This document shows, piece after piece, positions 31,001-60,201 of a stretch of 64,000 bases of DNA. A model generated the notes under the pieces. The model was given only the letters and a program-made list of their open reading frames with translations. It had not been told where the DNA came from and ran no database searches. Each line of letters opens with the position of its first letter. Position 1 is the first letter of the stretch. The position numbers and the translations under genes were made by a program. The stretch comes from Eunapius fragilis. Taxonomy: Eukaryota > Porifera > Demospongiae > Spongillida > Spongillidae. The stretch covers positions 3,634,352 through 3,698,351 of the forward strand of contig OY811977.1 in assembly GCA_963681505.1 (NCBI GenBank), given 5' to 3'.

Positions 31001-34000
31001 ACGCAGAACTGTGCTCCTATTTGATATTGCTCGATTGCCACTAAGAGTGAAATGACCCGACTCTTGGCTGTCCTGCTAGACTTGAGTAATGTTTTTAATG
31101 ACATTCATCATACTGCAGGATTCCTATATGGGACCTACTCGCGTAGGTGATATCTACATATTAACCATACAATAATGAGATAATGATGTTGATTGCAGAG
31201 ATAAAGGTTATGGCAATGAAAACTTGTGACCTTGATTCGTTTCTTAATAATTTAACTATAGATGTTAATATGCCAGGGTGCAAGTCAAGAGAAGTTGAAC
31301 CACCATTTCTTGGTAAGGCACAACGTCATTTTTGAGCGGGCAAGACTCAATAAAATGGATCAGGGTGAGGACAAGACTGCGGAAAAGTAAATAGCGTCTC
31401 AATATAGCTTAGCACGACACTGCAACTATGGTGAACGGACTGAGGAAATGATTCGGGACTGATTAGTAATGGGATATCTGTGACAAAGCCGTGTCTGAGA
31501 AGCTCCATTTGGAAGCAGACCTGACCCTGGAGAGAGCAAAGGTCATGGTTTGCCAACGCGAGGCGGTGCATGAACAGTAACAAGTACTGAAGGCCGGGAG
31601 CAGTGAGTGCATCAGTTACCACAGACGGTGCCGATGAATGCACACACACAGGTTGCAATCACTACAGATGAAGCGTGAATATGCAGCTCTTAAAACAGAC
31701 AGTCAAAATTTTGCACCAATGTGGCAAAGGACAGAACCAACATGTCCAGCCAAGGATGCCACATGCCATCAGTGTCAATGGATGGGGCACTATAGTTCAC
31801 AGTGCTGTTCAGCAAGAACAGTGACAGAAATACGCACAGATAAAGAAAGCCATGGGCAGGAGTCAGCTTTTCTCGGTGTTCCTGAAAGTAATGATAGTGC
31901 ATGGATGGTGAAGCAGGGAAGACAGTAAAATTCAAACTAGACACAGGAGCTGAAGGAAGCGCAGTATCTGACACCACCTTCAGATCCTACAGAGGGCATA
32001 ACCAAGCAAGACTCCTTATGGTCCAGCAAGTGGTGGTCTTGAAGTTACTGGTCAGTTTGATGGCACGCTCAGTCATGGTAGGAAATCCACAACACAGACA
32101 TTTTTGTGGTCAAAGGCCTTAGGACAAATCTACTAGCTTTTGAGGCTCTAAACCTAGTAGCCCAGGTACATGTAGACATGACTACAACTGCAAGTTCACA
32201 GATTGTAGATAGATTTCCAGTGCTGTTTCAATGTTTAGGAATTCTGGAAGAGCCATATGAGATACAGTTTAACCAGATGCTAAACCATATTCTCTGTTTA
32301 CACCATGTCACATACCACTACCTCTACGTCATTCCTTGGTGTGCAGGGATGGTTGTTGTCCCTAAAAAGAATAAATCCGTCCGCATCTGTGTAGATTTCA
32401 AACCACATTGTTTGGGAGGTGCATCCATTACCAACGGTGGATAAAAATCTTGCACAACTATTGGGTGCAAAGATGTTTAGTAAGCTGGATGCCAACAGTG
32501 GATTTTGGAAAATTCCACTTTCAGAAAATTATAATTATCTAACCACATTTGTCACACCTTATGGACGCTATTATTTTCATGAGCTCCCATTTGGTATTTG
32601 CAGTACTCCTGAACATTTCCAAGAATGGATGAGTACAATCTTGTCTTGGTTTCCATCATTGATTAAGAGGCAAAGGCAACTGGTTTCCAGACGGAGTCAT
32701 TTTCCTTCAATAAGACTGCTCATAGGCCGTATGATGATGCATTGGCAGGTTTTTTTTTTGGTGTAGTAGGCCAGTATGGATCGTTTACTGAGCTCCTCTT
32801 TGACCTGACAGAATGCTTGTGCATGTACTGATGTCCACTGCCACCCCCTGTTCTTGCCAAGCAGTTCTCGAAGAGGTTGAGTAAATTGTGCCAGTTTGCT
32901 TGTAAACTTTCTAACTGGTTGATCATGCCCAGAAAACGTTGCAGTTCTGAGACATTTACTGGTAGGGACATATTCTGGATGGCTGATGTCTTTGCTGGGT
33001 CAGCCTGAACACCGTAATGATTAATTTGATGCCCAAGGAATAGCAATTCCGACTGTCCAAAAACTCACATTTGTCTATATTTAAGGTCGCTTCAGCCTCC
33101 TGGATCCGAAAACAGAGCTGCCTCAAGTCGCATATCATGTTCATCCTTATTTTTGCCATTCACTAGGACATCGTCCATCTGGCATAGTATACCTCCAGGA
33201 AGACCCTGCAAAATTACGTGCAGATCGAGAAGGAAGCATTGGTCACTGCTGGGGCATGCAATAAATTTGCAGACCTCAATGTGGGGCTCAAGATTATTAT
33301 TGAAACAGATCTCACAACTTTGGTGCCACTTTTGAGATTCAAACACTTGGATGACTTACCACCTCAAATCCTCATGCAGGTTTAGGTTAAGGCCAGCAAG
33401 ATTTGAAATACTGCAAGGGAGAATGGCCCGACAAACATCATGTTGAACCAGCTCTCGAGCCATATTGGAAGGTTTGAGGGGATCTAACCCTTCATCAGGA
33501 TCTATTGCTATATGGCTGGCGCATCGTGGTACCCTAGTGCCTCCAGAAAGTAATTACAGAAGATTCATCACGAATATCAGGGTATCCAAAGTTGTAGACT
33601 CAGAGCTCAGTGTTCTATATGGGGGGCCTGGGATTCCACAAAACATCAAAGTCCAGATTGAGTGTAGTCCAGTGTGTATAAAACACTATTCACCACCTCA
33701 TGAACCATTAATATCCCCACCTCTGGCAGATCACCCTTGGCAAAGAGTGGCCACAGATTTATTCACACTGAAAGGGACCTGTTAGTTGGTTGTTGTGGAC
33801 TATTTTTCCAGGTATCCAGTAGTAATTCAACTCAGATCTACACTGTACTACATCGAATGGTGTTGTGAAAGCACTAAAAGCAATATTTGCCAGGCATGCA
33901 TGGTATCCCAGAAATGGTGGTCAATGATCAATGACAATGGCCTTCAATATGTCTCTGAGTTCACCACATTTGCTGTGGAATATAGCTTTACCCATATAGC

Positions 34001-40405: not shown

Positions 40406-42063
40406 ATGGAGGACACGAGGCATGCGTGTGCTATTGCTGTGCTGGTCATTGCCCTATCTCACAACGGTTGGAGCTTCAAAGCGAGCTGTTTGAATGGTTG
40501 GTATATATATATAGCATAAATGTATGTGTCCATGCGTTTTACAGCGTAACCTTGTATGCATTTCATTTCATTGGTCTGTCGCATGCAGCTGGGTCATCAC
40601 CCAACGACAACCTAACGATCATCCAATGCTCGGAAGACGAAGTGGCCATTCAATGGAACATACATAGCGACCTGCAGTTCGTAGCATTTGAATACAGCTG
40701 CATCCATCCGACCAACAGCACTGTGGTGTGTTCAATTCCCCGTTTATATATTACGTGTGATAAATCCCGCGAAAAATAATGCAAGCGTATGTATCGATTA
40801 ATATGAGAACGCGCAAAGCACGTATATTAATGCCTCTGTATACACTTATGGGTACATATGCGTGCACATACATATATTTATTGATGTAAACTCGGATTTC
40901 ATGTAGGATGTTCGCAACAAATCTCTTCCGTTCTGGAATGACGGCCAAACTGGAGTTACAATGGTGTCACTGCCAGGAGGAGCATTGTGTTTATTCTCGG
41001 CCTGTTACCTTGACAACGATAATACTCGGCACTTTATTGCACCAACAAGTTGTTCTGCAACCCCATCACCCACTTCAGCAGCAGATGGTAAATAACTTGA
41101 ATAAATGCAAGCATGCCGCGGCCGACCGCTTGCATGCATGTATATGTATGGATAGTTTAAACTAATCCGTTAAATGTATAATCACATGTATACGTAAATG
41201 TAAACTCATGTAGTTGTAGTGATATAGTGCGATGCAGGTAAGGAGGATTATTAAATGAATTGGAGTTAGTTTGTGTAAATAATACATACCGGTATTAATA
41301 ATGCATATGTATGTATTTACATGCATGTATAGACTCATCAGGACTGGAGAAAATCATCGTTCAACAAACAAAAACTTCGGACATCGAGGTTATCCTACTT
41401 CTGTCTATAACTCCCGAGTCATCCTCATCAAGAGTAAAAAGGATAAGTCCTTCCCTACCTCAAGGTGAGTTTTTAATTACGTATACATATACATATATGG
41501 AACAGTGCCCAGCAAATTAAAATCACGCTTATGGTACTTTATCAGAACAAGCAAAAGAAAAATAACGCTCGCCATGAAATGTATGGCTAATTATAAATTC
41601 AGTGCCTAATAACTAAATTTATGATGGATAGTCCAATTTTAGGATGTGTAAGGACCATTTGATGAAGCTCTTTTGAGTTCACGGAAAATGAAAAAATTTT
41701 AAAACTTGAAAAACTATCCAGAACGGTGATTTTGCTGGACACTGTCCCATATATGTATAAATTGAATGTTGGGATAAGTACTATTTTATATTCGATGCAG
41801 CGTCCATAGTTTGGGCTTCAGTTGGAGTGGTACTGCTGATATTCATGGTAGCAGTAACGTCAGTTTTTACCGTGATATGTCTCGTAGTTATTAAAAGAAA
41901 CAGTCATCGGAGTCGCTGGTAAGATTAACATGACAGCATTTCCGCTATCACAATCTTTAAAACTGAGTTTATCAATGTTTATAGGAACAAGGAAGTGCAA
42001 TCATCAAGCTCATGTTTATTAGAAGAAGTGCCAATTTTAAGACTGAAGCATGCAGGTGTTTAA
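40406..42063 (+). CDS. Six-cysteine type I membrane protein, array copy A (intact)
   Basis: Family not recognised. Exons: 40406-40496, 40589-40725, 40907-41087, 41333-41464, 41801-41918, 41985-42063; phases agree, 245 aa. Residues 1-23 are a signal peptide (AIAVLVIAL). The mature ectodomain has six cysteines (28, 44, 68, 104, 109, 125), three N-glycosylation sequons (38, 73, 80) and the motifs LTIIQCSEDEVAIQWNI and LPFWNDGQTGVTMVSL. Then follow a Ser/Thr-rich stalk with SSSSRVKR (170-173 = RVKR, a furin-type consensus), a membrane helix (about 183-210) and a 33-residue tail starting KRN. It looks like a cell-surface receptor or adhesion protein whose ectodomain may be cleaved; the function is unknown. 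AATAAA at 42152 fits the 3' end. Intron 1 has a weak donor (GTTGGT). Intron 4 holds an F2 MITE. Confidence 0.8.
41499..41748. mobile_element. MITE family F2, copy 3
   Basis: Inside intron 4 of copy A. Ends GGAACAGTGCCCAGCAAATT and TTTTGCTGGACACTGTCCC, flanked on both sides by ATATAT. The interior matches copy 1 in the same orientation. Confidence 0.87.
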
Positions 42064-42151
42064 TTTAATACGACGCTGCTTTGTTGTTCCTCCGTCCAGA
42101 TAGCCACTTCGAAGGACTGCACATACTCACCTTTGTCAGCTGGTCCTGTTG

Positions 42152-42157
42152 AATAAA
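42152..42157 (+). terminator. Polyadenylation signal of copy A
   Basis: AATAAA 89 bp after the stop codon, within a segment conserved downstream of copy D (about 58418). No other candidate lies nearby. Confidence 0.55.
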
Positions 42158-43092
42158 ATTCCTATAAGTGACTTGCTGATGAAGGACGAACTATGTGTGT
42201 ATCTTCTATACATTGCCTCTCTATTGTGTTTATGAAAAGGCAAATTTATGCATATATTGTGTGAACACCTGCTATGACGCTATGCACATGAGTTAATGCT
42301 CACTATACATCAACCTGTATTATTAAATCAATGGTGATGAACTGTGTAAGGCACATCATCCTTCTGCATGTACAGGAACTACTTAAATTGTTTACAGGAA
42401 GCTTAAAGGGGACAGAAGTAGCAACTAACTACAGAAGTACACTATTGATGGCAATGATGCACGGGATGAACAACAAGACTCGCCTTTTGTCATCAAACCT
42501 TCACCTGTTATTGTTGTATTGATATAGGATATCCATGGCAATTCATGCCTTGCAAGCACTTCAGTTGTAGGCTGTCATCGTGCCAACCGTTCTGCAATGG
42601 TATCACATGAGTTTGGTGGGCGTTTCCACATCTGGTGAGCTGTTTGAAGAACTTTTTGCATAACATTATAGCGTTGTATTGAAACAGCCACTTTTCAGAA
42701 AGGGAAAGCTCGGATTTCAATCCAGAATACTACGATTAACCCGATAACTCTGCTTGTTTGCATTGATTTGTGTAAACCAGCCAAAAATATAGCCGCCAGA
42801 GTTTATTTCAAGCATACTAGTAATCTATGCAAGGGAACCAGTGTATTGGTGCTTGAACAGCTAAAGCATATGGTAGTATCTTAGGACTAAACTCTCTCAT
42901 ATGTATCAGTGTGTCAACAGTATTCATTACAGTGACACTGCGTGTGAAGTGGATTGTATTACACGAGGGCAAGCAGATGTATATACGATTGTTCAGATAT
43001 TTTTAATTGGAGATCAACAAAACAAAATAAAATCATGCATACCTGAACGTGTGGTTTGCAATTTATTTGAAACAAACCACTCATCTGATAAG
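42158..43092. other. Intergenic within the array
   Basis: Up to about 42440 it is homologous to the DNA downstream of copy D (58440-58715). Beyond that nothing is recognised. Confidence 0.6.
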
Positions 43093-43350
43093 GCCACACC
43101 CCTGAGGGTCACATGATCCTTCACAAGGACCATCAATATAGATCCCCAGACCATTGTGAAGCATATCCGACAAGCCATGTGTCACATGCCCCCTATAAAG
43201 TACACATACCGTTAAGTGTGAGCTACACTCACATGATAAGGTGCATGACACCCCTCGGGATCACATGATCTTTCAAGGACCATTAGGGTAGAGCCCCAGA
43301 CCATTGCAAAGCATTTCTGACAAGCCATGTGTCACATGCACCCTATAAAG
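43093..43350. repeat. Direct duplication of about 105 bp
   Basis: The block with CCCCTGAGGGTCACATGATC, AGACCATTGTGAAGCAT and ACAAGCCATGTGTCACATGC is repeated at about 43248-43350 with substitutions. It contains no gene. Confidence 0.8.
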
Positions 43351-43948
43351 GGGGGTATTATAATAAAACATATAGGAGTTAGCTATTTCTAACATGCGCT
43401 CCAGATTATCTTTACAGGAGTTATCAGAAGCGTTAGATGAAGTGTCACTACTAAGAAATGGATCTGCATGTACAAATTCCAAAACAACGATCTGTATGTC
43501 AATAAACACATCACTTATGAATTTTAAAAGAGTTAAATTTCATTTAAAAATTAGGATTTTGGTCAGAATGCTTGGGGAAGCGGCACGATTGCCCCCGCCA
43601 AAGAGACACGCAAGAGAGCGCTAACTATGAAACCATACGTCATGTCCCTCTTTACTACTCGTGCTAGCTATATCTCGAAGGCTACGTATATTGCCATAAA
43701 AAATCGGTGGATGCGTTTGGTAATGCATACCTTCCATGCACAAAAAGCTGCTGTTTAGCTGGAAGAAAGCTATATCAGCTTTGGATGACGATTGTACTAA
43801 AATGAGGAGTTCAAAACATGTAGATGTACAAACGTATTTCTAGCAGTGGTGACAACAGTAACGTCGCTTGCCGCTCAATTTTTGAATTGTGAACGGAGTG
43901 ACTTACACATCCAATGGATATCAAATTTGATCAAACAATGTGCCATAA

Positions 43949-44377
43949 ATGTTAATATACGTACTCATATTTGGCACAAAAAATATAAGTAGCCGATATG
44001 AATCAAATATGGAGTTTCATTCAATGGACGAATTATGTATCGTGTTCGCGCCAAACATGTGGCGCTCAGTCCACACCTCGCATGTGTACCAGGTATGCAT
44101 CAAGTATGAACCCAGCCCCCATGCGTATAGTTATATACTACTAGCATTTCTTTTATCAAAAAAGCATACAACTGTTCAAATACATAGACTGCACGTAGTT
44201 CCATTCAATGCATCATCCATAGCAAATGGAGAAGCGGTTGAAGATAGCATGAGCAAGGTTCCGATTAAATCTACAGTACAAACAATGAATCAAGATATAG
44301 AACAGTGGCAAGAGGCACAGATTCCATTACGAGAGACAAAAGGCACACATGGTAACGTAATGTGTGGCGGCTGTTAA
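43949..44377 (+). CDS. Unrecognised ORF, possible exons of another membrane protein
   Basis: A 142-codon open frame, part of which looks coding (MEFHSMDELCIVFAPNMW; EDSMSKVPIKSTVQTMNQDI). GT-rich junctions inside it suggest that several exons may be read together. At 44793-44879 a separate short frame encodes a hydrophobic helix (MALVISITLLAVAVV) and a basic tail ending in a stop. The two would suit a single-pass membrane protein, but the splice phases I tried do not join, so the link is unproven. Confidence 0.25.
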   Translation: MLIYVLIFGTKNISSRYESNMEFHSMDELCIVFAPNMWRSVHTSHVYQVCIKYEPSPHAYSYILLAFLLSKKHTTVQIHRLHVVPFNASSIANGEAVEDSMSKVPIKSTVQTMNQDIEQWQEAQIPLRETKGTHGNVMCGGC

Positions 44378-44439
44378 TTGTATCCGTGCATAAGCTTCCC
44401 TGTCAAGACATATATACATGTTTAAAACCTTTCAGAGAT

Positions 44440-44790
44440 GGAATGTTATAAATCCTATAGTGTCTATTGCTGTGTGAAACTGGAATCTTATAAGAATTGG
44501 CACTGTACGATTCTTGTAAGAGTCTTGTATTACTAAGAACAAAACAGGAATCTTACAAGAATTGACACTAGGATTCTTATAAGGGTGTTGCAAGATTTCT
44601 AGTAAGAACAAAACTGGGAATAGGCACTGTAGGATTCTAGGATGTTTTCTCATAAGAACAACTTACAAGAATCCTATACAGTTGTCTATTCTTATAAGAT
44701 TTACAAGAATCCTACAGTTTTTATTCTTATAAGATTCCTGTTTGAAACTGGAATCTACACTGCAGGATTATAGACACTGTAGGATTCTTG
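44440..44790. repeat. AGGATTCTTATAAG-rich repeat block
   Basis: The words GGATTCTTATAAG, GAATCTTACAAG and their complements recur about ten times in direct and inverted orientation, with CACTGTAGGATTC between them. Similar words reappear at about 45680-45890. It looks like a scrambled tandem repeat or subterminal repeats of an unknown element. No gene. Confidence 0.65.
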
Positions 44791-44879
44791 TCATGTGGAG
44801 CATGGCACTGGTGATTAGTATCACTCTACTAGCTGTAGCTGTGGTCTGTCACTGTCGGTGGTACTTTAGAAAAATGTAG

Positions 44880-45889
44880 CTTGTGAATGCCCAGCTGCTT
44901 GTTCACTGAAGATAAGTTCAATGTAATGCACCACTTGTTCTTTATAGCTCTTTTATGCAAAATCAAGAATTATAACTTGGCTGAGAACACCCCATTGCTC
45001 GTTCATTGAAGATAAGTGCTATTCTTATTTAACATAGTTTTTATTATTGCAGAAGCAAGATTTATTGACTTGATCGAGCATTTCAATCCATGTGTGAAAA
45101 TAAATATTGATGTCATTGTAAATATTGGTATTGATGATATAAGTGGGTGGTTTAGTTGCGGTTTTTCACTTGTTAGATAGTGTTCTTGTTGCTGTGTGAT
45201 TGTGGTTGGGGATAGATTTATCTGTTCCATTAAAAATGGCACATGAATATTCTTTCACCACAGTCTATGACTCTAGCATGATATGTTTTCCCCTTCAGCC
45301 ATCTCCTTTGTAACAGTTTCTCCAAATTCATCCAATTTTTATGTCGGGAAAGGATGAGGGCAGTAAGGAAATGAATAAGGATGTGGGAAAGAGAATGAGG
45401 AGGGAAGGAAAAGGTTGAAAGGACTAGAGAGGGGGAGGGAAGGGAAAGGAATAGATAAATAAATAGGCTAATTGAACATGATATCAATTTGTACAACACC
45501 TGTTTAAGCAGTGTAATGTTATCATATCTATAGTGTTTAAAACATGGATTGAATTGCTGCAAAAGGAAATGAAATAAAGCGCATGTTGCAGCCAAGAATG
45601 GTTGGACGCTAGAAATGAAAGTAATGACATACATTATTTTCTATTTTTTAATTTGTGATATTTCTGCATGATAACTTGAAGAATTATATAAGATCCTGCA
45701 GAATTCCTAATAAGATCTTGGTCTGATTCTACAATGAACTTATAAAAATTTGCTTGTAAGAACCCATCAATCCTTCAGGATTCCTATTAAGATCTTGGTC
45801 CCAATTTCTTGCATATTATTAGGATTCCTACCGTAAACACATAGGAATTTGTTGTAGAAACTTGTAAGAATCCATCAATCCTTCATGAA
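44880..45889. other. Intergenic, repeat-like, no gene recognised
   Basis: AT-rich, with a purine tract at about 45380-45460. The minus-strand ORF across it is Ser/Leu-rich and has no family match. Confidence 0.5.
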
Positions 45890-46560
45890 GTAATCCCTAT
45901 AAGTGTGGGTCGGATGCCTCTCCACAATATATTGTGCATGACGACATTTAATGAAGACCCTGCGCTTGACAGGAGTTACAATGGTGTCACTGCCAGGAGG
46001 AGCATTGTGTTTATTCTCGGCCTGTTACCTTGACAACCTTAACACTCGGCACTTTATTGCACCAAAAAGTTGTTCTGCGACCCCACCACCCACTGCAGCA
46101 GTAGATCATAGTAAGCAATTGAATAAACGCAAGCATGCCGCGGCCGGCGCGGCCGCCTGCCATACATGTATGCATGTAATGTTTAAATAAATCCGTACAT
46201 TGTTAAATGTGCAATTACATGTATACGTAAATGTAACCTCATGTGGCAGTTGCAGTAGTTTAGTGCGTCGCAGGTGAGGATGATTATTAAATGAATTTGG
46301 AGAGTGTTCGTGCATGTGAATAATGCATACCGGTATAATGCATATATGTGTGTATTCAAGCACGCGTAGACTCATCAGGACTGGAGAACATAATCGTTCA
46401 ACAAACAAAAATGTCGGACATCGACGTTGTCCTATACTTCCATCAATAATTCCCGAGTCATCCTCAGTATGAGTGAAAAGATATGTCATTCCCTATATCT
46501 CAAGGTGATTATTATATTATGCGTGCATAATTATGGGATTTTGGGATAAGTACTACATTT
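45890..46560 (+). pseudogene. Array copy B, truncated pseudogene
   Basis: The upstream block (GAAGTAATCCCTATAAGTGT to GAAGACCCTGCGC) is fused directly to the middle of exon 3 (GGAGTTACAATGGTGTCACT, from about 45970), so exons 1 and 2 are deleted. The exon 3 donor is changed. Exon 4 (from 46370) still reads SSGLENIIVQQTKMSDID but then hits stops before the furin-like site. Exons 5 and 6 are missing. Intron 3 has the GC palindrome CGCGGCCGGCGCGGCCGCC, as in copy D. Confidence 0.75.
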
Positions 46561-47232
46561 TTTCGACGTAGCAATTCGAGCAACAGCGGTGAAAATGATG
46601 TTATTTTTCAACGTTTGCAGCTAGATTCTTTAACCGTTTGGCTTTACGAAACGATGCTCCTAAATCTTTGGACCGCTTTGATGAAATTTGTATGAGGGAC
46701 AATCGATAAAGACTAAGACTTTTCGTTTAGTTATAGTTATGATAGGTATACCGGGCAGGTTTTGCTGGCCTGCTCTAATTCATAACGCTAATTAAATAAA
46801 AACGCTAGTTTACGCGCAAGCGCTATCGCGATACGGTGTAAACTAATTATGGAATGGTTTAAGCCGTCATAATCAGCGCGGCCTTATAAGACGAACGCAC
46901 GCGATTCTCATTTGTACATGTGTGCGTGTGTGTGTGGGGGGGGGGTGGAGGGCGGCGGCAATTTCTTGATAGGGGAGGCATTACTATGGATGGGGGGGGG
47001 GGGCCTTCTCAAGGCTATGGTTGATCCGCCACTGGAGGCCATCGAAACAGTAATACCGATAAAGAGTCATTCAAAGGTATGTAAATGTAGCTACTTACTC
47101 TTACTAAGCTTGGTTTACAATATGACATTGGTGGCTGAACATTACGGATCAATTACGAATCAATTACGATTAATTACGCGTCATTAATTACGCACCGGAA
47201 TAATGTGCACGAAAAAAGAAAAAATGAATGAA

Positions 47233-47490
47233 ACAAGTAAAAAAAAGCCTTCTCTATGAGAAAATTGGTGGGATAGGATTTAAAGGCAATGGTGGTGTAA
47301 AAAGCAAGGAAACAAGGTTCTGTAATAGTATGGGAAAATTTCAGTCCTATTATTTAGCACACGAACACAATATAAGACTATAACATTTTCCCTTACTAAA
47401 GACCCTTGTTTCCTTGCTTTTTACACCACCACTGCCTTCAAATCCTATATCCCGCCAATTTTCTCACTAGAGAAGACTTTTTTATTTACT
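47233..47490. mobile_element. Foldback MITE, family F1, copy 5
   Basis: In tandem unit 1. Arms begin ACAAGTAAAAAAAAGCC; the loop side is shortened compared with copy 4. Confidence 0.82.
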
Positions 47491-48089
47491 TTTTATATTT
47501 GCGAGAATATATAGAATCGAATTCATATAACTGAAGGTGCATACATGGGGGAACGAGGATGGAACAATAATACATGCATGATGTTGCATAGGTTATAGCA
47601 ATTGACCTCGTGGTGACTATTTTTGAGGGAGGATCGAGCGGGGGGGGGGGGGAGGGGGGGGGGGGTGACTCCTACGGCTCATGCAATGCATCATTAAAAC
47701 CGCCCCAAAATGGAGCTTCTATTTGTTCAAAGCAGGATCAAAATACCGATGCAATTCTCGTTTGTACATGTGTGCGTGTGTGTGTGTGGGGGGGGGGGGG
47801 GGGGGTGGAGGGCGGCGGCAATTTCATAATAGAGGAGGCATTAGGATGGGGGGGAGGGGAGGGGGTGGGGGCCTTCTCAAGGCTATTGTAGATCCGCCAC
47901 AGGAGGCCATCGAAACAGTATACCGATAAAGTTATTCAAAGGTATGTAAATGTAGCTACCTACTCTTACTAAGCTTGGTTTACAATATGACATTGGTGGC
48001 TGAACATTACGGATCAATTACAGATCAATTACGATTAATTACGCGTCCGCACCGGAATAATGTGCACGAACAAAGAAAAAATGAATGAA

Positions 48090-48369
48090 ACAAGTAAAAA
48101 AAAGCCTTCTCTATGAGAAAGTTGGTGGGATAGGATTTAAAGGCAATGGTGGTGTAAAAAGCAAGGAAACAAGGTTCTGTAATAGAATGGGAAAATTTCA
48201 TAGTCCTATTATTTAGCACACGAACATTATAGTATATGTTAAATATAAGACTGTGACATTTTCCCTTACTACTAAAGACCCTTGTTTCCTTGCTTTTTAC
48301 ACCACCATTGCCTTCAAATCCTATATCCCGCCAGTTTTCTCACTAGAGAAGACTTTTTTATTTACTTGT
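48090..48369. mobile_element. Foldback MITE, family F1, copy 6
   Basis: In tandem unit 2, at the equivalent position to copy 5. The two were therefore multiplied by the segmental duplication rather than by two insertions. Confidence 0.84.
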
Positions 48370-48749
48370 TATATTTGCGAGAATATTTAGAATCGAATTC
48401 ATATAACTGAAGGTGCATACATGGGGGAACGAGGATGGAACAATAATACATGCATGATGTTGCATAGGTTATAGCAATTGACCCCGTGGTTACAATTTAT
48501 GAGAGAGGGTCGGGGGGAAGGGGGGGGGGGGGGGGGGGGGGACTCCTATGGCCCATGCAATGCATCATAAAAACCGCCCTAAAATGGAGTTTCTATTTGT
48601 TCAAAGCAGGATCAAAATACCGATGCAATATAATATAGCATTATATGAACCAGTGAAATGGCGTGAATTAATGTTCAACGCATATTGATACACCAGTGTT
48701 TGCACACAATAATTCACTCCCATCGCTACGTCCACTGCTTTAGCAAACA

Positions 48750-48757
48750 TATAAAAG
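48750..48757 (+). promoter_or_regulatory. TATA box of copy C
   Basis: TATAAAAG 59 bp before the start codon, in the block AAACATATAAAAGAGCACCA that is conserved before copy E (59814-59821). Confidence 0.6.
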
Positions 48758-48815
48758 AGCACCACTTGCTGTCTAACATCATCTTACATGCACAACCGCG
48801 CGCTGCATGCACATA

Positions 48816-50146
48816 ATGGAATATCACAAGCAAATTCTGCCCCTGCTTCTAGTTACGTTGGTGCAGGGCGCATTATGCTTCAGAGCCAGCTGCTTGAACG
48901 GTTAGCTACGGTGTAAGTATAAACGGATCCTTTTAATTTGTGTGTATTTCATAATGCAAGCAGCTGGGTCGTCACCCAACGACAGCCTAACGATCCTCCA
49001 CTGCTCCGAAGACGACGTTACCATTCAATGGAACATTCACGGCGACCTGCAGTTCGTAGCATTCGAATACAGCTGCATCCATCCGACCAACAGTGTTCTG
49101 GTGCGTGAGTAACTTTACATCTTTACACCCCCCATCAACAGTTTGCACGTACATGTATTATGCATAAGTATGGTATTGAAGTACTGTACTACTGTATTTC
49201 TTTGCCCATAATGCATGCAATCAATGATCCAAACATGCATGAACTGTAATATTTCTGTATCAGCTACCCGGCGAAGCTTATAAAATTGAGGTTGTAGCAT
49301 GACCCGGGAGCGCGCTGTAGTCCAATCTGAATTGGTTCCTATACTTTTGTTACATCCCATTACGCATGTACATATTAGACTGATGTGCACAATAGATGGA
49401 GTGCGACATTGCATATGGGCATTTCATATTGACAGAGTGTTCGCAACCAATCCCTTCCGTTCTGGAATGACGGCCAAACTGGAGTTACAATGGTGTCACC
49501 GCCTGGAGGAGCATTATGTTTATTCTCCGCCTGTTACCTTGACAACGATAACACTCGGCACTTCATCACACCAACAAGTTGCTCTGTGACCTCAACGTCC
49601 ATGCCACCAGACGATGGTAAGCAACGGCAGATGCTTTTAAAGCATGTGTTAGTTTGCAAAAAAGATATAAAATTCATCTTGAACAATACATATATGCTTA
49701 TGTGCATGCTTAAAATGGCGCGGTACTCATTGATAGGCTCATCCTTGATGGAGCAAATCATCGTTCTGCAAACCGCGACTAGTATTTCGGACATTGAGCC
49801 ATTCCCGTCTACAACTCCCGAGTTATCATCTTCTAGAGCGAAAAGGACAGCTTTTACTCCACAACAAGGTGCGTTGGGGACTATAGATCATGTTACCAGT
49901 TGGTATTAAGTGCTCTTTTTTCTCTTCATTCTCATTTCAGTTCCCCCATATTTTCTTTCGGTTGGAGTGGCAATGCTAATTCTTGTGGCTTTGATTTTTG
50001 CTGCTTTGTTGCTTGTGGGCGTCAAGAGACGACAGAGGTAACACAAATGTATAATTTCCCTTAGGAACAGGGAAGTGAGATCAAAATGCATATTGCGACA
50101 TGTACAGAGGCGTAACTGTCATTTGTGTTGCATTCCACCTATTTAG
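48816..50146 (+). CDS. Six-cysteine type I membrane protein, array copy C (intact)
   Basis: Exons: 48816-48900, 48964-49100, 49436-49616, 49737-49868, 49941-50037, 50065-50146; phases agree, 237 aa. The signal peptide (MEYHKQILPLLLVTLVQGAL) is unlike copy A. Exons 2 and 3 are nearly the same as in A, with the same exon lengths: GSSPNDSLTILHCSEDDVTI, LPFWNDGQTGVTMVS and all six ectodomain cysteines. Exon 4 has diverged but keeps its length of 132 nt, and keeps SSSRAKR (168-171 = RAKR) in the same place as RVKR in A. A different membrane helix (SVGVAMLILVALIFAALLLV) is followed by a basic, Cys-containing tail. This is a second subtype of the same unknown surface-protein family. The exon 2 donor (GTGCGT) is non-standard. 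Confidence 0.78.
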
Positions 50147-50700
50147 ACTGACTTTGCAGTCGTTATAATGAACACATCTTCTTGCTCCGCTGCATGGACT
50201 TGCTGTGCAGACTGATCATAACCTTCTTGAATAGAAAATCACTTAGTACAATATTAGTAATATGCATCTGCATATAATGCTCAACTTTTATTTATCTTAT
50301 TACTGTCATCACAAAATTATAATATTTATGTGGCATGCACACATATGGAAATTCAGTGCTACTTAGGATTAGTGGTTCCATCAGTAATGAAGTGCTGACC
50401 ATGTATGTGTACAAGGTTGAGGTCAAACCTCAGGATGGGGAGGTGGCCTAGATGAGGCAGCTGTGCTCATGAAGGAAGGGGGGGGGGGGGGGGGGTGGAA
50501 TGGAGATGAGGGCAGGAAGAAATGTAGGTCTATTAGGTTTGCCATATCGGGAGGGGTGGGTTAACGAATCATTATGGGGGAGGGGTGCATAGCTACATAA
50601 GGGAAGGGTAGGTGGGGTACATAGCAGCATAAGAGAGGGGGTAAGAGCGGTACATAGCTTCATAAGGAAGGGGTACATATATAGCACCCCTAATACCGCT
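50147..50700. other. Intergenic with G-rich tandem words
   Basis: G-run at about 50478-50495 and several loose copies of GGGGTACATAGCTTCATAAG-type sequence at about 50575-50690. No gene. Confidence 0.6.
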
Positions 50701-50704
50701 ATCA

Positions 50705-51437
50705 ATTGTGGAGGAGCCATTCCAGAGAATCGCAATGGACATTGTGGACCCGTTGCCCGGGTGTAGCTCAGAAATCAGTACGTACCAGTAGTCTGTGACT
50801 ACGCCACAAGATACCCGAAGGCAATGCCGATGCGGGCGGTGAACGCGGAAGCAGTGGCAGAGGAACTGGTAAGGATGTGGGTATTCCCCGAGAAATTCCT
50901 ACTGATCATGGGTCCAACTTTACCAGCCAATTACTGGCTGAACTGTACAGGCTGCTGCACATTCGTCCCATTCGTACCAGCCCTTACCATCCGCCGACGG
51001 ATGGGTTGGTTGAACGATTTAATCAGACACTGAAATCCATGCTAAGGAAGGTGACCACACAGGAGGAAGAAGCCTGGGAAAATTTGATTCCGTATGTGCT
51101 TTTCGCATATCGTGAGGTTCCTCAGAGCTCCACAGGTTTCTCTTCTTGTGAGTTACTCTATGGCAGAGAAGTCCGAGGCACTTTAGATGTGCTGCAAGAG
51201 TCCTGGGTGGCTAAGGAAAAGAGCAGCGAAAATGTGGTGTCACACAAAACGTCTATCCGGGAGAAGATGGCGGAGATGACAACGGTAGTTCGAGAGAGCC
51301 TCGAGAAGGTGCAAGCCTCACAGAAGAGCTGGTATGACCAGAATGCGCGGGTAAGGACTCTCAACGAACACTGTGCAAAAAACGTAGTGTACATTTTTGA
51401 GTATATTTCGTGTATACCATCAATATATCAATGGTAG
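50705..51437 (+). pseudogene. Ty3/gypsy integrase fragment
   Basis: Starts at the first catalytic block (FQRIAMDIV), then shifts frame to YATRYPKAMPMRAVNAEAVA and again to GIPREIPTDHGSNFTSQLLA (second Asp) and GLVERFNQTLKSML (Glu), ending with REVPQSSTGFSSCELLYGRE and a helical tail. The region before (protease, RT) is absent, so it is a truncated piece. It is different from the relic in the MFS intron. Confidence 0.85.
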
Positions 51438-52440
51438 TGAATATTCACCTGGTTTAAATATTTTAAAAAACCTCAGGTGACAATAATTCATTGCGCGTAT
51501 TCTCGAAGTATCAAGTTTACGCAAACCGCAATCTATTATGCAACACATGCAATTTGATAGCTTACGTAAAAAAATAACTTTGATATGAATTCAAATATTA
51601 TCTCGATCAAGAATGTACGACTGTATTTCTCCTATATGTGAGTTCGAACGTATATGGATATATGTATATGCCACGTTTACCTATTGAACTATAAGCGTCG
51701 GTACGTATCTATCATATATTTTGATGCCGATAACAAACCTATCCGTGGAAGTCCTATTATCTCGAAGAAGTCGTACCAGTGACATTGATGATTGTTAATT
51801 TCAACCAGTCTTGTGACGGCTGTTTTTGTGTGTCTGCTGTCGTAAAAGACATGAAGGTAATTGTGGCCCTATGTGGTATATAGATGTTATTAGTGCAGCA
51901 TGGAACAGTGTCCAGAAAAATCACCCTTTCGCACGTGTAGTTTTTCACGTTTTCAATTTTTTTTGTGAACTCCAAGATGCATCCTAAATTGGTCTGTCAT
52001 CAGATACTGAACTTAGCCATACATTTCAAAGCAAGCGTTACTTTTCTTTGCTTGTTTGAAAAAGTATCACAACGATGCATGGCTTGGGCTTAACAAGTGA
52101 TCAAGGGTAAAATTTTGAAGCCACTTACCGACGGTAGACGAAAATGATCATCACGCGATTAACGTGGCATCTGTACCCATACGTGCATGCGTTGTACATG
52201 TACTTCAAATAATAGTTGACATGCATTACTTACTATAATTTTTTAAAAATATTACCGATCCGCATGTTCTTAAGTTTAATATGAATCACCTAGTCTGTGC
52301 GCATTCGCTTTATAGCTATAAGGTAGAAGCAAATACAGTGTGTCTGAGGGTGGAATATTGGTGCAGGTTTTAAAACTTAAAAACGTAATGACCTCTTCAT
52401 GCATTCTTATATTGCCTCGACTATACATGTCATCCCGGCC
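51438..52440. other. Intergenic between copies C and D
   Basis: AT-rich, no gene recognised. Contains the truncated F2 element at 51902-52080. Confidence 0.6.
51902..52080. mobile_element. MITE family F2, copy 4 (truncated)
   Basis: Starts GGAACAGTGTCCAGAAAAATC in the same orientation as copy 2 and keeps the TTTCAAAGCAAGCGTTACTT block, but loses its right terminal repeat at about 52080. Confidence 0.75.
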
Positions 52441-52448
52441 CGCGAGTG

Positions 52449-52565
52449 TACAGCAAAAAGTTTTTGCTGTTTCGGACTTTTATGTTTTCTACTGAGTTTC
52501 ATTTCACGATACGTTTTAGGATTGCAATTGGGCCGAAAGAAATAAGACTTAAAAATCGGTATCAT
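52449..52565. repeat. Inverted counterpart of 39478-39607
   Basis: The reverse complement of this stretch matches the DNA about 0.9 kb upstream of copy A (shared: AAGTCTTATTT-TTTCGGCCCA, CGTATCGTGAAAT, AAGTCCGAAAC, TTTTTGCTGTACACTCGC). Upstream of copy D it is flipped, while neighbouring homologous DNA is not. Confidence 0.75.
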
Positions 52566-52852
52566 ATACGATGCTGGCACTATCCATCACACTCGCGCAA
52601 ATACATGTAGCATAGCTTGTTATAATTACATGCATATCAAATTAAGGATTTAAACCGGCTTATATCGGTCAATCCTAAAAGGACTTGTAGTCACGAAAAC
52701 CATTTCTATCTAATCTGTGCACCCAAGTGAGCTTTTCCATACGCGTGACTTAATCAGATTAATGTAAAAGGTTAAACGCCTTTGTACATCGACAGTACTT
52801 TTAAAATGGATCGACATCATAAGCACTTGTATATTCCTAGGCATATATGTAC

Positions 52853-52856
52853 GGGA

Positions 52857-52892
<36 letters not shown>

Positions 52893-53154
52893 CACAACAA
52901 CGGAAAAGTAACATCAGAACAACGTATACTAAAATGACAATCTTTCTTTGGGCCTTAAACTAGCTGTTAACGGTCATATAACATCCCACCATCAATATAA
53001 TTATATATAGAGGGGAAAAGATGGTTTTGATGGTGGGATGTGATATGACCTCTAACAGCTAGTTTAAGGCCCAATGATTCTTATTTATAGTTCGTTGTTC
53101 CGAGTGTTACTTTTCCGTTGTTGTGAAACCCCCCCCCCCCCCCCCCCCCCTCCC
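52853..53154. mobile_element. Foldback MITE with poly-G/poly-C ends and TGTAC target duplication
   Basis: Arms of about 130 nt begin GGGACGGGGG... and end ...CCCCTCCC. Inner blocks TTCACAACAACGGAAAAGTA and GGGCCTTAAACTAGCTGTTA match their complements. TGTAC lies on both sides (52848-52852, 53155-53159). The equivalent DNA upstream of copy A has a single ATATATGTACCTGC, the empty site. 302 bp, non-coding. Confidence 0.88.
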
Positions 53155-53491
53155 TGTACCTGCACTTAAATGAGTTTGGCTACAGCATAAAGAAAATGCG
53201 TGCGACGGAATGTATAAACCCGTGCAAGGCAGGAGAACGTGCAGGCATAATCATGCATTTGACTAGCTTGATCCAGAAGTACTTAATATCTCTCCCATAT
53301 TATTAGTGAGAAACGGGAGTGGGGTGGGCAGTGCGGTTCATTGATCACGAGAAATGCCGTGGAAAGAATGGGTTCAGGGTAGCCAGTGTGGGTGGAAAAA
53401 TACGAAGTACCTTCAATTGAAGTAACCCCTATAAAGATGGGTCGGATGCATTCCAACCCTCCCTCACTGACGACATACAATGTATTGTGCA

Positions 53492-53499
53492 TGACGTCA
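53492..53499. promoter_or_regulatory. CRE-like palindrome upstream of copy D
   Basis: TGACGTCA 161 bp before the copy D start codon, in the upstream block shared with copy A. Confidence 0.45.
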
Positions 53500-53699
53500 T
53501 TTAATGAAGACCTGCGCGTGAACTTATTTCAGTAAAGCTGTTTTCCCACCATGCAGACAGTATACTCCCACTCAGTCCCAATACCAAGCAATTTAGGAAT
53601 AAAAGGACGCTGCTATGGCATTAGAATCAGTCAACTTACACTATAGTTCGCTTGAACTGATGGAGGACACGAGGTGCGTGTATGCGATTGCTGTGCCGG

Positions 53700-56445
53700 T
53701 GTCATAGATTTCATTGACCCCCGTTACGATGACTCCCGGTCATTCATCCCTAGTGATTAATGACTCCCAGTCATTGAACTCTAGCGATCAATGACTTCCC
53801 GAACATTATACCTAGGTATAAATGACTCCTTTAGGTATAAATGACTCCCCAGCCCCTGACCTGGAAGTGAATGATACCTAGGTATTAATAACTCCCATAA
53901 ATAATTAATAGCGCATTCATTAAATGTTTTCAAATAAAGCATGATATAAAACTGGGGGCTTTATGCCAGGCATTTTGAACATGTGCTGCATCTCCAATTT
54001 ACTGAGATGTCCTTTTTGTTTCTGATTTCCATACAACGGTAGTGATACCTGAACCATCCTTCTGTCATAATGATCAGGCATACGACAGATGCAATAAAGT
54101 TCCCTTGTTATGTTCTCTGGTTCGCAACGATGAATAAAAACAGTTTTGACTGCTTGTGGGGAATACTGTGGAAAGCGTTCTAATGTGCCAGTATTGAGAC
54201 ATTTGAAGAGGTGTGGTCTCATATCACTTTGGATGAAAGATGCTTTCCTGGGATCATTGCCACTACATAATTCAGTTGCAAATGCAATGGAAAACACCCC
54301 ACAGTCTTTACATCCATTCTGTTGCTGAACATCAAGAGTTCCGATGATGAGACAAGATTTCACGACAGGGATTTCATAAATCTGTGCAACTTGAAGAACT
54401 AATGTTTCCCTCATAGAAGATGCCAGGCTGTCCATCAATAAAACCACTCCACATTTAGCTCCTATGCTTGTAGTATATACCCAGTGACTAGCTCCTACAT
54501 GTACATAAAAATTTAGCTGGGGTTATGTAAGGGATAAGTATGGTCAATACATGGCTTACCAGTGTGATGGATTTGCACAACTGGATTTGGGGAGTGTTGA
54601 AACTGAAGCACCTTTCCCAAAACAGGGTTATGGAGTCCATTGATATTTGGAGAGCTTTTTATCAATAGCATTTGGGCTGCAATGATAATTGAATCAGAAA
54701 GCTCGTTGCCATTCAACAAATCATGCTCATCAATGTTATAAAGTCTTATATCCCTGATCCATACTTGACATTCTTTTTTTTCAGGTGTACGAGCATGTTC
54801 ATCAGCCAAAATTAACTCACCTTCTGAGAATGTGGAAGAATTAGCTGATTGCAAATGAGATGAAGCTGTGGTGAAGATTTATCTGTAGTATGAAACTCTG
54901 CATGTTAGTCGAGATACATTGACTGCATTCTTCAGAGTTTTTCCTGTCTTTGGATTGTATAAACGATACACACCCTTTCCAAGATCTGCATGTACTAAGT
55001 ATGGACCATTCCACCTTAGTTTCAATTTGTCTCCTTTTTTTGGTTTCTCTAGCACTGTTTTTGAGAAAAACTTGAGTGCCATTACTTAGGATATGTAAAT
55101 CAAATATATATGTCAATATCATGCAAATGAATATAGCAGTTACCTTAGAAATAGCATGCTTCTTGTCGTAGTACGCTTTATCTTTTGCTTGAGCAATCTG
55201 AATATTTGACATTGTCTTTGCATTTATCTTCTCTCACACACATGCCATTGCCTTAGCTTGTGAAATGATATAGTCTGCATCCCAGATATCACTTTCAACT
55301 TCCGAATCATTTGCATCTGTGATATCTGGACATCTTTTTGCATTCATATCAGCAGGTAACACAGCCTTCTATATAAAAATGAATAATATTATATTCAACA
55401 ACAGTATGCAGTATCAAACCATACCGACAGTACATGACTTCAAATGGGGTCATCTTTGTAGCCTTTTGTATAGCAGTTCTGTACCCAAAAAAGTACACCT
55501 GATAAGTGATCATCCCAGTCATTTTGACTTTCATTAATCAATTTGATAAGTGCAGTCTGTAAAGTCTGATTAAAGCGCTCAGTTAACCCATTGCTTTGGG
55601 GATGATAAGCTGAAGTAACACAATGTTCAGTGCCTGTCAGTCTGAATAGCTCTTCCTGAACCTCATTTACAAATTCACGCCCTTGATCTGAAATAAGAAC
55701 TTCACAGCAACCAAATCTGGATGTAAACATTGAATAGGTGAAAGCTATTCGCATATAACCCCACTAATTAGAAGAGTCTATGCTGCTTATTATACAAAGT
55801 GACATACAGCTACTTTTTACTAACCTGCAAAATTCTTCATACAAAAAGTTAGCTACCCCAATGGCAGTCTTATTGGGAAGTGGAGCGGCTTCTGGCCATT
55901 TGCTGAAATAGTCCAATAGCGTGACAATGTACTTGTTTCCCTTTGCAGTTAATGGTTATGGCCCAATGAGGTCAATTCCAACCTGCGAATAGAGATACAT
56001 GAGTGCATCTAAAGTTATAATGTTTATTCATATCATGCATACCCAACTTACTTACTTTATGCCCGACTTGCGCTCGCACAGGTACTGGATGCAACACAGC
56101 ATTGCTCTAAATAATCCTTGGATTCATCTTCTGGCACTTTTCACAGACTTTTACAAATAATTTTATATCTTCATACATGTTGCGCCAATAAAAGCGTGCA
56201 GATATTTTTTTCCAATGTTTCATTTCTACCTAGGTGAGAACCTGTACAAATATTAAAACAAAGCATTCAAGATCTTATTTCTTTATGAATCAAACAAATT
56301 AATGAACGTTAATCATAATGAGATCTTATTCTATTAAACAACACAATCTTCTATATACATGTACAAGAAAAGAACAGACCACAATCAAGCTAGCTATGAT
56401 ATTTACCTCAGCGCGTACACACGCACACATTACGTACACACACGC

Positions 56446-56508
<63 letters not shown>

Positions 56509-56920
56509 TCAGAGATCTGCTCTAACACATACCTTTCCATCATTTCATTACCTGCCAAACCCGCATGGCAGGACTCGAAAATGCGCATTTTATCTTCACA
56601 CGTTCGAACACTTATTCTCCACAACGAATCCTCTTGTTTGTCACCTGTCTCCACATTTTTTCGATAATACAAAACCCCATCTTCTGTCTTGAAGTTATTG
56701 CGGCATTTTCTTCTCAGATTTGCTTTGTCTGCTTTTGTCATTCAAACAGGATACTCTCCGCGCAACAAATATTTCTCTACGATAGCTAGCTCTTTGCTAA
56801 AATCTTCCCATTTTTCTATTGTAGCACATGGCAATTGCGTCAGGGGGGAGTCACGTGAGCCTAATGTATCAATGACCGGGGAGTCATTCATCCCAGGGAG
56901 TCACGCACCGCTCCGACACA
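53700..56920 (-). mobile_element. Ginger1-like DNA transposon (3.2 kb)
   Basis: The left end TGTCATAGATT follows CCGG (53696-53699), the target sequence reported for Ginger1. The right end is ...GACACA. Subterminal DNA on both sides has ATGACTCCC/GGGAGTCAT words (about six on the left, four on the right) and the inverted pair ATGACTCCCGGTCATT. The interior encodes, on the minus strand, an integrase-type transposase with a Ulp1 and a PHD module. The right junction is eroded: the second CCGG and some host DNA are gone. A (CA)n microsatellite sits at 56440-56505. Confidence 0.78.
53920..56741 (-). pseudogene. Ginger1-type transposase: integrase, GPY/F, Ulp1 and PHD modules
   Basis: Minus-strand order. 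Zinc-binding H2C2 region about 56580-56080 (HAGLAGN; later FVKVCEKCQKMNP, after a one-base shift in an A-run). DDE core: VGIDLIGP about 55980, ISDQGREFVNEV about 55685, GLTERFNQTL about 55580. GPY/F domain about 55030-54900 (NGPYLVHADLGKGVYRL). Ulp1 protease 54500-54160: His in ASHWVYTTS, Asp in LLMDSL, Gln and Cys in QQQNGCKDCGVF. PHD-finger remnant 54090-53950: LYCICRMP, then out of frame YHYRC and WRCSTC. Some gaps look like introns (GT-AG); others are stops and shifts. All four catalytic Ulp1 positions are present. Dead as it stands. Ginger1 proteins with C-terminal Ulp1 or OTU domains are published; I do not recall a PHD. Confidence 0.82.
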
Positions 56921-57149
56921 ATGCTCGGAAGACGAAGTGACCATTCAATGGAACACGCAAAGCGAGCTGCAGTTCGGAGCATTTGAATATAGCTGCATCC
57001 ATCCGACTAACAGTGCTGTGATGTGTTCCCGGCCCGTTATATGTGACAAATCAATAATGCAAGCGTATTGTAATGCATGAGAACGAGCGAAACACGTATA
57101 TATTAATACCCGCTCTAGTCTGTATTACAATTATGAGCTCTGCGCAACA

Positions 57150-57309
57150 GCATTTAGTATGCAGAGTTGTGCAGAGTCTGCATACCAACCATATGCAGAT
57201 GAGTATTGTTGAAGTGTTCATATGCAGACGTCTGCAAATGAACACTTCAATGATACCCGTCTGCATATTGTTGATATGCAGACTCTGCACAGCTCTGCAT
57301 ACTAAATGC
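57150..57309. mobile_element. 160-bp hairpin MITE in copy D intron 2
   Basis: Ends GCATTTAGTATGCAGAG and CTCTGCATACTAAATGC. Arms of about 75 nt pair along their whole length, with repeated TATGCAGA words. It is absent from intron 2 of copy A, which is otherwise alignable. Confidence 0.85.
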
Positions 57310-58439
57310 CATTGCACAGTGGCGGTATGTATGCGTGCACATACAAATATTTATTGATGTAAACTCATGTAGGATGATATGTTCGCAACCAATCGCTTCC
57401 GTTCTGGAATGACGGCCAAACTGGAGTTACAATGGTGTCAGTGCCAGTAGGGGCATTGTGTTTATTCTCGGCCTGTTACCTTGACAACGATAACACTCGG
57501 CACTTTATTGCACCAACAAGTTGTTCTGCGACCCCATCACCCACCGTCAGCAGTAGATGGTAAGCAATTGAATAAACGCAAGATGCCGCGGCCGGCGCGG
57601 CCGCCTGCCATGCATGTATGTCATATCTAAACAAACCCGTACATTTTTGAATCATGTATACGTAAATGTAACCTCATGTGGTAATTGTAGTAATTTAGTG
57701 CGTCGCAGGTGAGGATGATTATTAAATGAATTTGGAGAGTGTTCGTGTGAATAATGCATACCGGTATAATGCATGTGTATTTATTGTGTGTATTTATACA
57801 CGCACGTATAGACTCATCGAGAAAATCATCGTTCAACAAACAATAACGCCGGACATCGAGGTTGTCCTATTTCCATCTATAATTCCCGAATCATCCTCAT
57901 TATGAGTGAAAAGGATATATCGTAGTTATTAGGCAAATAAGTCATCGGAGACCCAGGCACGCACGCATTCGCGCAATCACGATCTTTAAAACTGAGTTTA
58001 CCAATGTTTATAGGAACAAGGAAGTGCAGGCAGGAATGTTGTGATAAGTACTGCGTTATATTCGATGCAGCGTCCACAGTTTGGGCTTCAGTTGGAGTGG
58101 TACTGCTGATATTCATGGTAGCAGTAACTTTGGTTGTTACGTACCGCGATGTGTATCGTAGTTATTAGACAAAAGAGTCATCGGAGACCCAGGTAAGAAT
58201 TGCACCCACGCATCTACGCAATCATGATCTTTAAAACTGAGTTTACCAATGTTTATAGGAACAAGGAAGTGCAATCATCAAGCTCATGTTCATTAGACGA
58301 AGTGCCCATTGTAAGACTGAAGCATTCATGGGTACAATGTAACGTTGCTTGTTGTTCATCCGTGCAGATAGCCATAGCAAAGGACTGCACATACTCGCCT
58401 AAGTCAGCTGGTCCTGTTGAATAAAATTACTATAAGAGA

Positions 58440-59440
58440 CTGGCTGATTAAATAAGAGCTATGTGTGTATCTTTCTATACATTGCCTCTGAGTGTATGCA
58501 TTTGAAAAATTACTGCTTGCATGTATTTATGCGTTGGCATGCATATACTGTGTGAGCACCTGCGGTGCACGCGGTGCACAATGTTAATGCTCACTATACG
58601 TCAGCCTGTATTATTAATGGTGATGAACTGTAAGACACATCGTCCCTCAGCAAAACACGTTATACGCCATGTACAGAAACAATTCAACTTAAATTGTTTA
58701 CAGGAAGCTTAGAGGGGACAGAGACGTTTAAACCTAGTTGCCTATGTCATAGACTTGCGAAATATATAACATGCATTGGAAGGGGCAAACCCATATGAAG
58801 CAAAACCCTTTGCGTACATGCATGCATGCAGCTAGGTCCGGGATAATCAGGTGGTTGGCCCGCGCTGGTACAGAGCTAAATTATTACACATGTACATCAT
58901 CTGCCAACAAGGACCACCGGAGGGAAAGGTGTGGTTTATGGAATATCTGGGTTCCGTGGAGGATCTTATTATGTGCACAGGGTCCCTGTGCAGACAATTG
59001 CATCCTCCACATGAGGGGGCATGCCATCGAATAGCGTTCTGAGGCACCGACTAATTCATCAAGAAACATCAGACTGTCCTATACTTAGCATTTTTGCAAT
59101 CATAACAATACTTTATGCTCTTTCAACCCTCAAAACCTAATATTAACTTAACGTATTTATAGACAAACCTTTTGAATTTTGCAGCGAATTTATAATGTGT
59201 ATATCAAAAAAACATTGTATTGCATGCATGCATGCTTAAATGTACCTTAAATGCCGGTTCATTGCCTTATTTGAGCAGTTGCATATTGGCGTACTTTAAT
59301 TCTTTATCCCCACTGCTTTTGCATGAGCATCCATGCAGAGCGTTTCTGAAATTAGAATATTAAACCGTCCCCGCCTTATAATCCTACAAATGCTTACACT
59401 CACACCAATTAATGTACCTCATACGTGCGCTCAGTATACT
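58440..59440. other. Intergenic between copies D and E
   Basis: The first 280 bp are homologous to the DNA 3' of copy A. The remainder shows no recognised feature; overlapping ORFs near 58770-59070 have no family match. Confidence 0.6.
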
Positions 59441-59813
59441 TGCATATTATATTTGCGAGAGTATGTAGAATTCAATTCAAATAACTGAAGGTGCATGCAT
59501 GAAGGAACGGGGGTGGAACAAAATTACATGCATGATGTTGCAGGAATTGATCTAGCGGTTACTATTTAAAGAAGGAGGGAGGGGTGGGGGGGGGGGGGGG
59601 GTGGGGGAGGACTCCCACGGCTCATGAAACCGCCCCAAGATGGAGCGTCTTCTATGCGTTAATTCAGGATCAAAATACCGATGCAATATAATATATCATT
59701 ATACGAACCAGTGTAATGGTGTGAATTAACATTCCACGCATATTGATACCACCACTGTTTGCACACAACAATTAACACCCACCGCTTTACATCCACTAGT
59801 GCTTTAGCAAACA

Positions 59814-59821
59814 TATAAAAG
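59814..59821 (+). promoter_or_regulatory. TATA box of copy E
   Basis: TATAAAAG in the same sequence block as copy C. Confidence 0.55.
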
Positions 59822-59876
59822 AGCACCACTTGCTGTCTAACATCCTACATGCACAACCGCGCGCTGCATGCACATA

Positions 59877-60201
59877 ATGGAATGCCACAAGTAAATACTG
59901 CGCATGCGCATTATGCTTCAGAGCCCCTGCTTCTAGTTACGTTGGTGCAGGGCGCATTATGCTTCAGAGCCAGTTGCTTGAATGGTTAGTATGCCCGTCG
60001 CTGCGGTGTAAATATAAACAGATCCTTTTAATTTGTGTGTATTTCATAATGCAAGCAGCTGGGTCGTCACCCAACGACAGCCTAACGATCCTCCACTGCT
60101 CCGAAGACGACGTTGCCATTCAATGGAACATACATGTACATGGCGACCTGCAGTTCGTAGCATTTGAATACAGCTGCATCCATCCGACCAACAGTGTTCT
60201 G
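59877..60201 (+). pseudogene. Array copy E, only exons 1 and 2 remain
   Basis: Copy C subtype. The ancestral ATG (59877) now meets a stop after five codons, because a stretch ending GCGCATTATGCTTCAGAGCC is partly duplicated. An ATG five bases later (59882-59984) restores the frame into LLLVTLVQGALCFRASCLN. Exon 2 (60059-60201) is open, with a 6-bp insertion giving NIHVHGDL. Intron 2 continues to about 60550, where an F3 element replaces the position of exon 3; no later exon is found up to 64000. Truncated, probably by that insertion. Confidence 0.72.

Follow-up and report, generated by a model that had tools for sequence, protein, structure and literature searches.

The question raised by a 64,000-nucleotide stretch of the Eunapius fragilis genome (contig OY811977.1, positions 3,634,352 to 3,698,351, forward strand; hereafter the window) is what is encoded by a tandem array of single-pass surface-protein genes at window positions 40,406 to 60,201. 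The reading that we favour, with somewhat better than even confidence, is that the array is part of a family of type I membrane proteins specific to its lineage, in which tailed members on chromosomes 1, 2 and 5 would be receptors and the tail-less products of two genes in the window, A and C, plausibly shed a fibronectin type III (FN3)-like domain.

Structure of genes A and C

Both genes lie on the plus strand and have six exons. In gene A, exon 1 (40406..40496) encodes the presumed signal peptide and the first cysteine, exons 2 (40589..40725) and 3 (40907..41087) encode the N-terminal and C-terminal halves of the FN3-like domain, with the fold taken from a model of the paralog H, exon 4 (41333..41464) encodes the stalk with the sequence RVKR, exon 5 (41801..41918) the membrane helix, and exon 6 (41985..42063) a short tail. 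The 3' end of exon 6 is uncertain, and a 44-nt last intron, recognised by eye, is possible and would lead to a different C-terminus. The exons of gene C are found at 48816..48900 (presumed signal peptide and first cysteine), 48964..49100, 49436..49616, 49737..49868 (stalk with RAKR), 49941..50037 (membrane helix) and 50065..50146 (short tail). A first-pass annotation of the window had described A and C as intact genes for proteins of 245 and 237 aa; the GT/AG dinucleotides at every internal junction and the identical intron phases (1,0,1,1,2) confirm this.

Seven cysteines precede the helix in each protein; one lies in the signal peptide, which is presumed from N-terminal hydrophobicity alone, leaving six in the mature ectodomain. 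The single hydrophobic helix spans residues 191-211 in A and 186-206 in C, the R-x-K-R motif occupies residues 170-173 (RVKR) in A and 168-171 (RAKR) in C, and these three features are likewise as first described. Serine and threonine make up 31-32% of the stalk in both proteins, and the C-terminal tail is short and basic. A 42-base string from exon 3, searched with up to three mismatches, occurred three times in the window versus 0.00 expected; the similarity within the array is therefore not due to chance.

Predicted fold of the ectodomain

The structure model of copy H, the only copy modelled, has the FN3 sandwich topology, and the ectodomain is accordingly predicted to fold as a single FN3-like domain, rich in disulfides, to which two exons contribute. 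A Pfam search of 10 sequences from nine copies, run at E values up to 10 with filters that drop most weak matches, gave no fn3 (PF00041) match, and the domain is therefore named FN3-like rather than assigned to fn3. At this threshold only A, C and K had any matches, all weak and unrelated (E 0.068 to 1.9). The best PDB sequence matches of two profiles, to a viral spike (E 0.76) and a CO dehydrogenase (E 0.28), were taken as chance. Domain sets of 20 FN3 and 20 I-set Ig domains from the same genome, each hand-picked from 150 listed matches, were compared by hhalign; the family aligned to the FN3 set with P 0.07 over 25 columns and to the Ig set with P 0.26, and the control alignment of FN3 versus Ig gave P 0.053.

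The first-pass annotation knew no family with this pattern and suggested a domain search and a structure prediction. Its view holds at the level of sequence, there being no relevant match in Pfam or the PDB, but is not supported at the level of fold, which is predicted to be FN3-like. No description of the family was found in the listed titles and abstracts of a literature search on it, on sponge FN3 domains and on FNDC5, a search that left most subscription journals outside, and a four-word look-up in the main text of PMC10176882, on structure-based annotation of Spongilla, returned "fibronectin" zero times.

Distribution of the family in the genome

The genome searched comprised 218,937,333 bases in 24 contigs, with the window on chromosome 7; according to PMC12616128, the assembly, odEunFrag1.1, has 23 scaffolds totalling 218.91 Mb and a mitochondrial genome of 28.5 kb. 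Copies were counted by the second domain exon, and for some copies on chromosomes 1 and 2, in which the two domain exons lie kilobases apart, their pairing was assumed. The genome holds at least 27 copies. Eleven are on chromosome 7 (J, K, H, I, A, B, C, D, E, F and G): J and K are distant copies at 3.22-3.23 Mb, 0.4 Mb left of the window, H and I lie on the minus strand at 3.625 and 3.634 Mb (9 and 0.4 kb left), and F and G at 3.847-3.849 Mb, about 150 kb right. With K, one chromosome 1 member and one chromosome 2 member as queries, six copies were found on chromosome 1 (5.07-5.30 Mb), seven on chromosome 2 (14.66-14.76 Mb) and two on chromosome 5. A divergent copy, Z, is located at 6.79 Mb on chromosome 2, its later exons being recognised by eye. 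No relatives were confirmed in collections of viral contigs and genome contigs. The chromosome 1 cluster also contains an I-set Ig domain (5282499-5282747).

Damage is also seen outside the window: the domain of C2.4 is interrupted by a stop, the frame breaks in domain exon a of C5.1 and in the helix of C1.2, and copy F lacks a start codon and carries, as judged by eye, an 11-nt deletion in the second domain exon. No membrane exon was found for copy G. By eye, G (L012 5340-5400) departs from C at the codon for the first arginine of RAKR, and a secreted protein would be expected if no further splicing occurs.

D-E and F-G represent one duplicated pair, with 1.5 kb of spacer and flank aligning at 89%. 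In a tree of 20 rows (all copies except B, D, E, F, C1.3, C2.4 and C5.1), the seven chromosome 7 rows stood together on one side of a branch with support of 98/98. The chromosome 1 copies were weakly supported (61/91), those of chromosome 2 did not form one side of any branch, and Z, J and K were long rows. The tree and the pair alignment fit local duplication, and the window copies form one branch, in part decayed, of a family also present on other chromosomes. The cluster first described is thus real and extends further, with E running beyond the window and H, I, F, G, J and K outside it, and the idea of a clustered six-cysteine, single-pass family that gains and loses copies is supported.

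Cytoplasmic tail and furin-type site

A cytoplasmic tail beginning with variants of KIDPDFKPTLTSHHAVFFSVESQLDSL was found in 13 of the 15 clustered copies on chromosomes 1, 2 and 5 (C1.6 being read without its first residues); the exceptions are C2.4, with a fragment of the tail, and C2.5, in which none was found. The ectodomains of C1.5 and C2.6 are only 48% identical. Tail queries from these chromosomes gave a best E value of 0.69 against the window and the H, I, F and G loci, and J and K have a separate long tail, 36% alike between the two.

The dibasic site was first thought to be conserved in the family. The scan does not support this: R-x-K-R is present in two of 19 scanned copies, A and C, and is therefore a feature of these two. 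The scan covered 19 of the 27 copies (all but B, D, E, F, G, C1.3, C2.4 and C5.1) and started at domain exon b for those on chromosomes 1, 2 (Z included) and 5. At the equivalent position H and I carry RDER, and R-x-x-R is absent from the scanned part of 15 copies. The pattern of furin-type convertases, R-x-K/R-R in an exposed stalk, was likewise found, among the scanned copies, in A and C only. Given that A and C share 49% of stalk residues, the chance that R, K and R all survived together would be about 0.12. Prohormone convertases are present in a demosponge, going by the title of PMC6850559.

On our preferred reading, the proteins would share a layout of signal peptide, FN3-like domain, Ser/Thr-rich stalk and one membrane helix. 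Those clustered on chromosomes 1, 2 and 5 with the conserved tail are probably receptors or adhesion receptors, in which the FN3-like domain would bind a ligand outside the cell and the tail would recruit a partner inside. The window branch of A and C, with its nearest kin H and I, lacks that tail. Since the furin-type site of A and C lies between the domain and the membrane, release of the FN3-like domain is plausible, as is a role for it as a soluble ligand or decoy.

Broken copies and neighbouring features in the window

Copies B, D and E were described at the outset as broken, and missing exons, stops and an inserted element bear this out. Copy B (45969..46500, plus strand) lacks exons 1-2 and retains part of exon 3 plus exon 4, in which an in-frame TGA stands at the codon for the first arginine of R-x-K-R. 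Copy D, also on the plus strand, is interrupted in its first exon (start at 53660..53703) and resumes with the remains of exons 2-6 at 56919..58340; exon 4 shares with B the TGA at the codon for the first arginine, and the helix exon 5 is damaged. The element inserted in D (53704..56918, minus strand, ends approximate) carries part of a Ulp1-type protease (PF02902, E 2.2e-5) and, by eye, an integrase-like piece. By eye, both of its ends begin with TGTC in inverted orientation, an arrangement like that of Ginger-type DNA transposons. Exons 1-2 of copy E (59877..60201, plus strand) include an early stop codon in exon 1, recognised by eye, and the remainder lies beyond the window; E holds about 6 kb of extra sequence, and in its next exon (exon 3), 6.7 kb on, a stop replaces a tryptophan codon.

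Immediately upstream of gene C, two direct repeats (46901-47755 and 47751-48629) match each other at 90%, and within each lies an inverted repeat of about 260-290 bases. A retroelement integrase core was matched, below the cut-off of its profile (rve_3, E 7.6e-5), at 50799-51437 and a retroelement reverse transcriptase (RVT_1, E 5.1e-10) at 32395-32766, both on the plus strand. A 1367-aa open frame at 7224-11327 on the minus strand encodes many WD40 repeats (PF25173, E 2.5e-93; TEP-1 propeller PF25047, E 4e-39) together with what looks by eye like a Walker A-like motif.

Selection and competing explanations

All selection values come from one haplotype. For the ectodomain of A versus C, dN was 0.101 and dS 0.306 (dN/dS 0.33, Fisher p 0.0012), and for the stalk dN was 0.466 and dS 0.603 (p 0.41), with replacement changes denser in the stalk (p 1.5e-7). 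A and C, as read from their sequences, are thus under purifying selection, with the FN3-like domain of the pair conserved. These values lend no support to diversifying recognition for A and C. For the family as a whole, a role in allorecognition or immune recognition, with receptors diversifying through birth and death, would fit the broken copies within clusters, the Ig domain inside the chromosome 1 cluster and the values in the chromosome 2 cluster (L040, L046-L049), where dN/dS was 1.0-1.6 for exon b, the second domain exon, in four of four overlapping pairs versus 0.14-0.27 for exon a, the first. However, none of these exon b pairs differed significantly from 1 (Fisher 0.6-1.0), the two computable pairs on chromosome 1 gave 0.46 and 0.47, and the single haplotype and the constraint on A and C also weigh against such receptors, which we consider unlikely.

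The frames, GT/AG junctions and six cysteines retained by A and C, together with their ectodomain dN/dS, make it very improbable that the array is decaying without current function, despite the broken B, D and E, the lesions of F, the membrane exon not found in G, the element within D and the extra sequence in E. It is possible but rather unlikely that the proteins are, like FNDC5/irisin, precursors of secreted ligands, in which case the membrane form would serve only as a precursor and the shed FN3-like domain would be the signal. The layout and fold class match, irisin is among the best structure matches, A and C carry R-x-K-R, and in G, B and D the frame ends at or beside its place.

Compared with these alternatives, tailed receptors alongside a plausibly shed A and C remain our preferred reading. 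The analysis supplies a predicted fold, a census and a conserved tail for a sponge surface-protein family invisible to Pfam, and the motif that stands out most in the window pair, R-x-K-R, proves to be confined to one branch. Should the tail signal, freshwater sponges would possess a receptor family as yet unexplored, with membrane and soluble forms open to comparison in one genome.

Comparison with known systems

Class I cytokine receptors have paired FN3 domains with WSxWS. Unlike the FN3 ectodomains of gp130 and IL-2R beta, the sponge proteins have one domain only, and none of A, C, H, I, J and K contains WSxWS (C without its last ten residues); on both counts they do not fit this class. 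With fibronectin FN3-11 (5dft) the sponge domain shares the predicted fold, but it has 7% identity, six cysteines and no Pfam fn3 match. FNDC5/irisin (4lsd) is among the best structure matches to the copy H model, as one of many tied FN3 matches, with 6-8% identity and extra cysteines in the sponge family. No sequence homology to FNDC4/FNDC5 was found in Pfam or PDB sequence searches. It seems improbable that a single gene family provides the two partners of a signalling system, tailed FN3-like receptors on chromosomes 1, 2 and 5 and tail-less, sheddable FN3-like ligands or decoys in the window branch, and forms a single-FN3 receptor class independent in origin from cytokine receptors and FNDC proteins. 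The layout resembles that of FNDC4 and FNDC5, in that a signal peptide (judged by hydrophobicity), a single FN3 domain (of predicted fold), a stalk and one helix follow one another in the sponge proteins as well.
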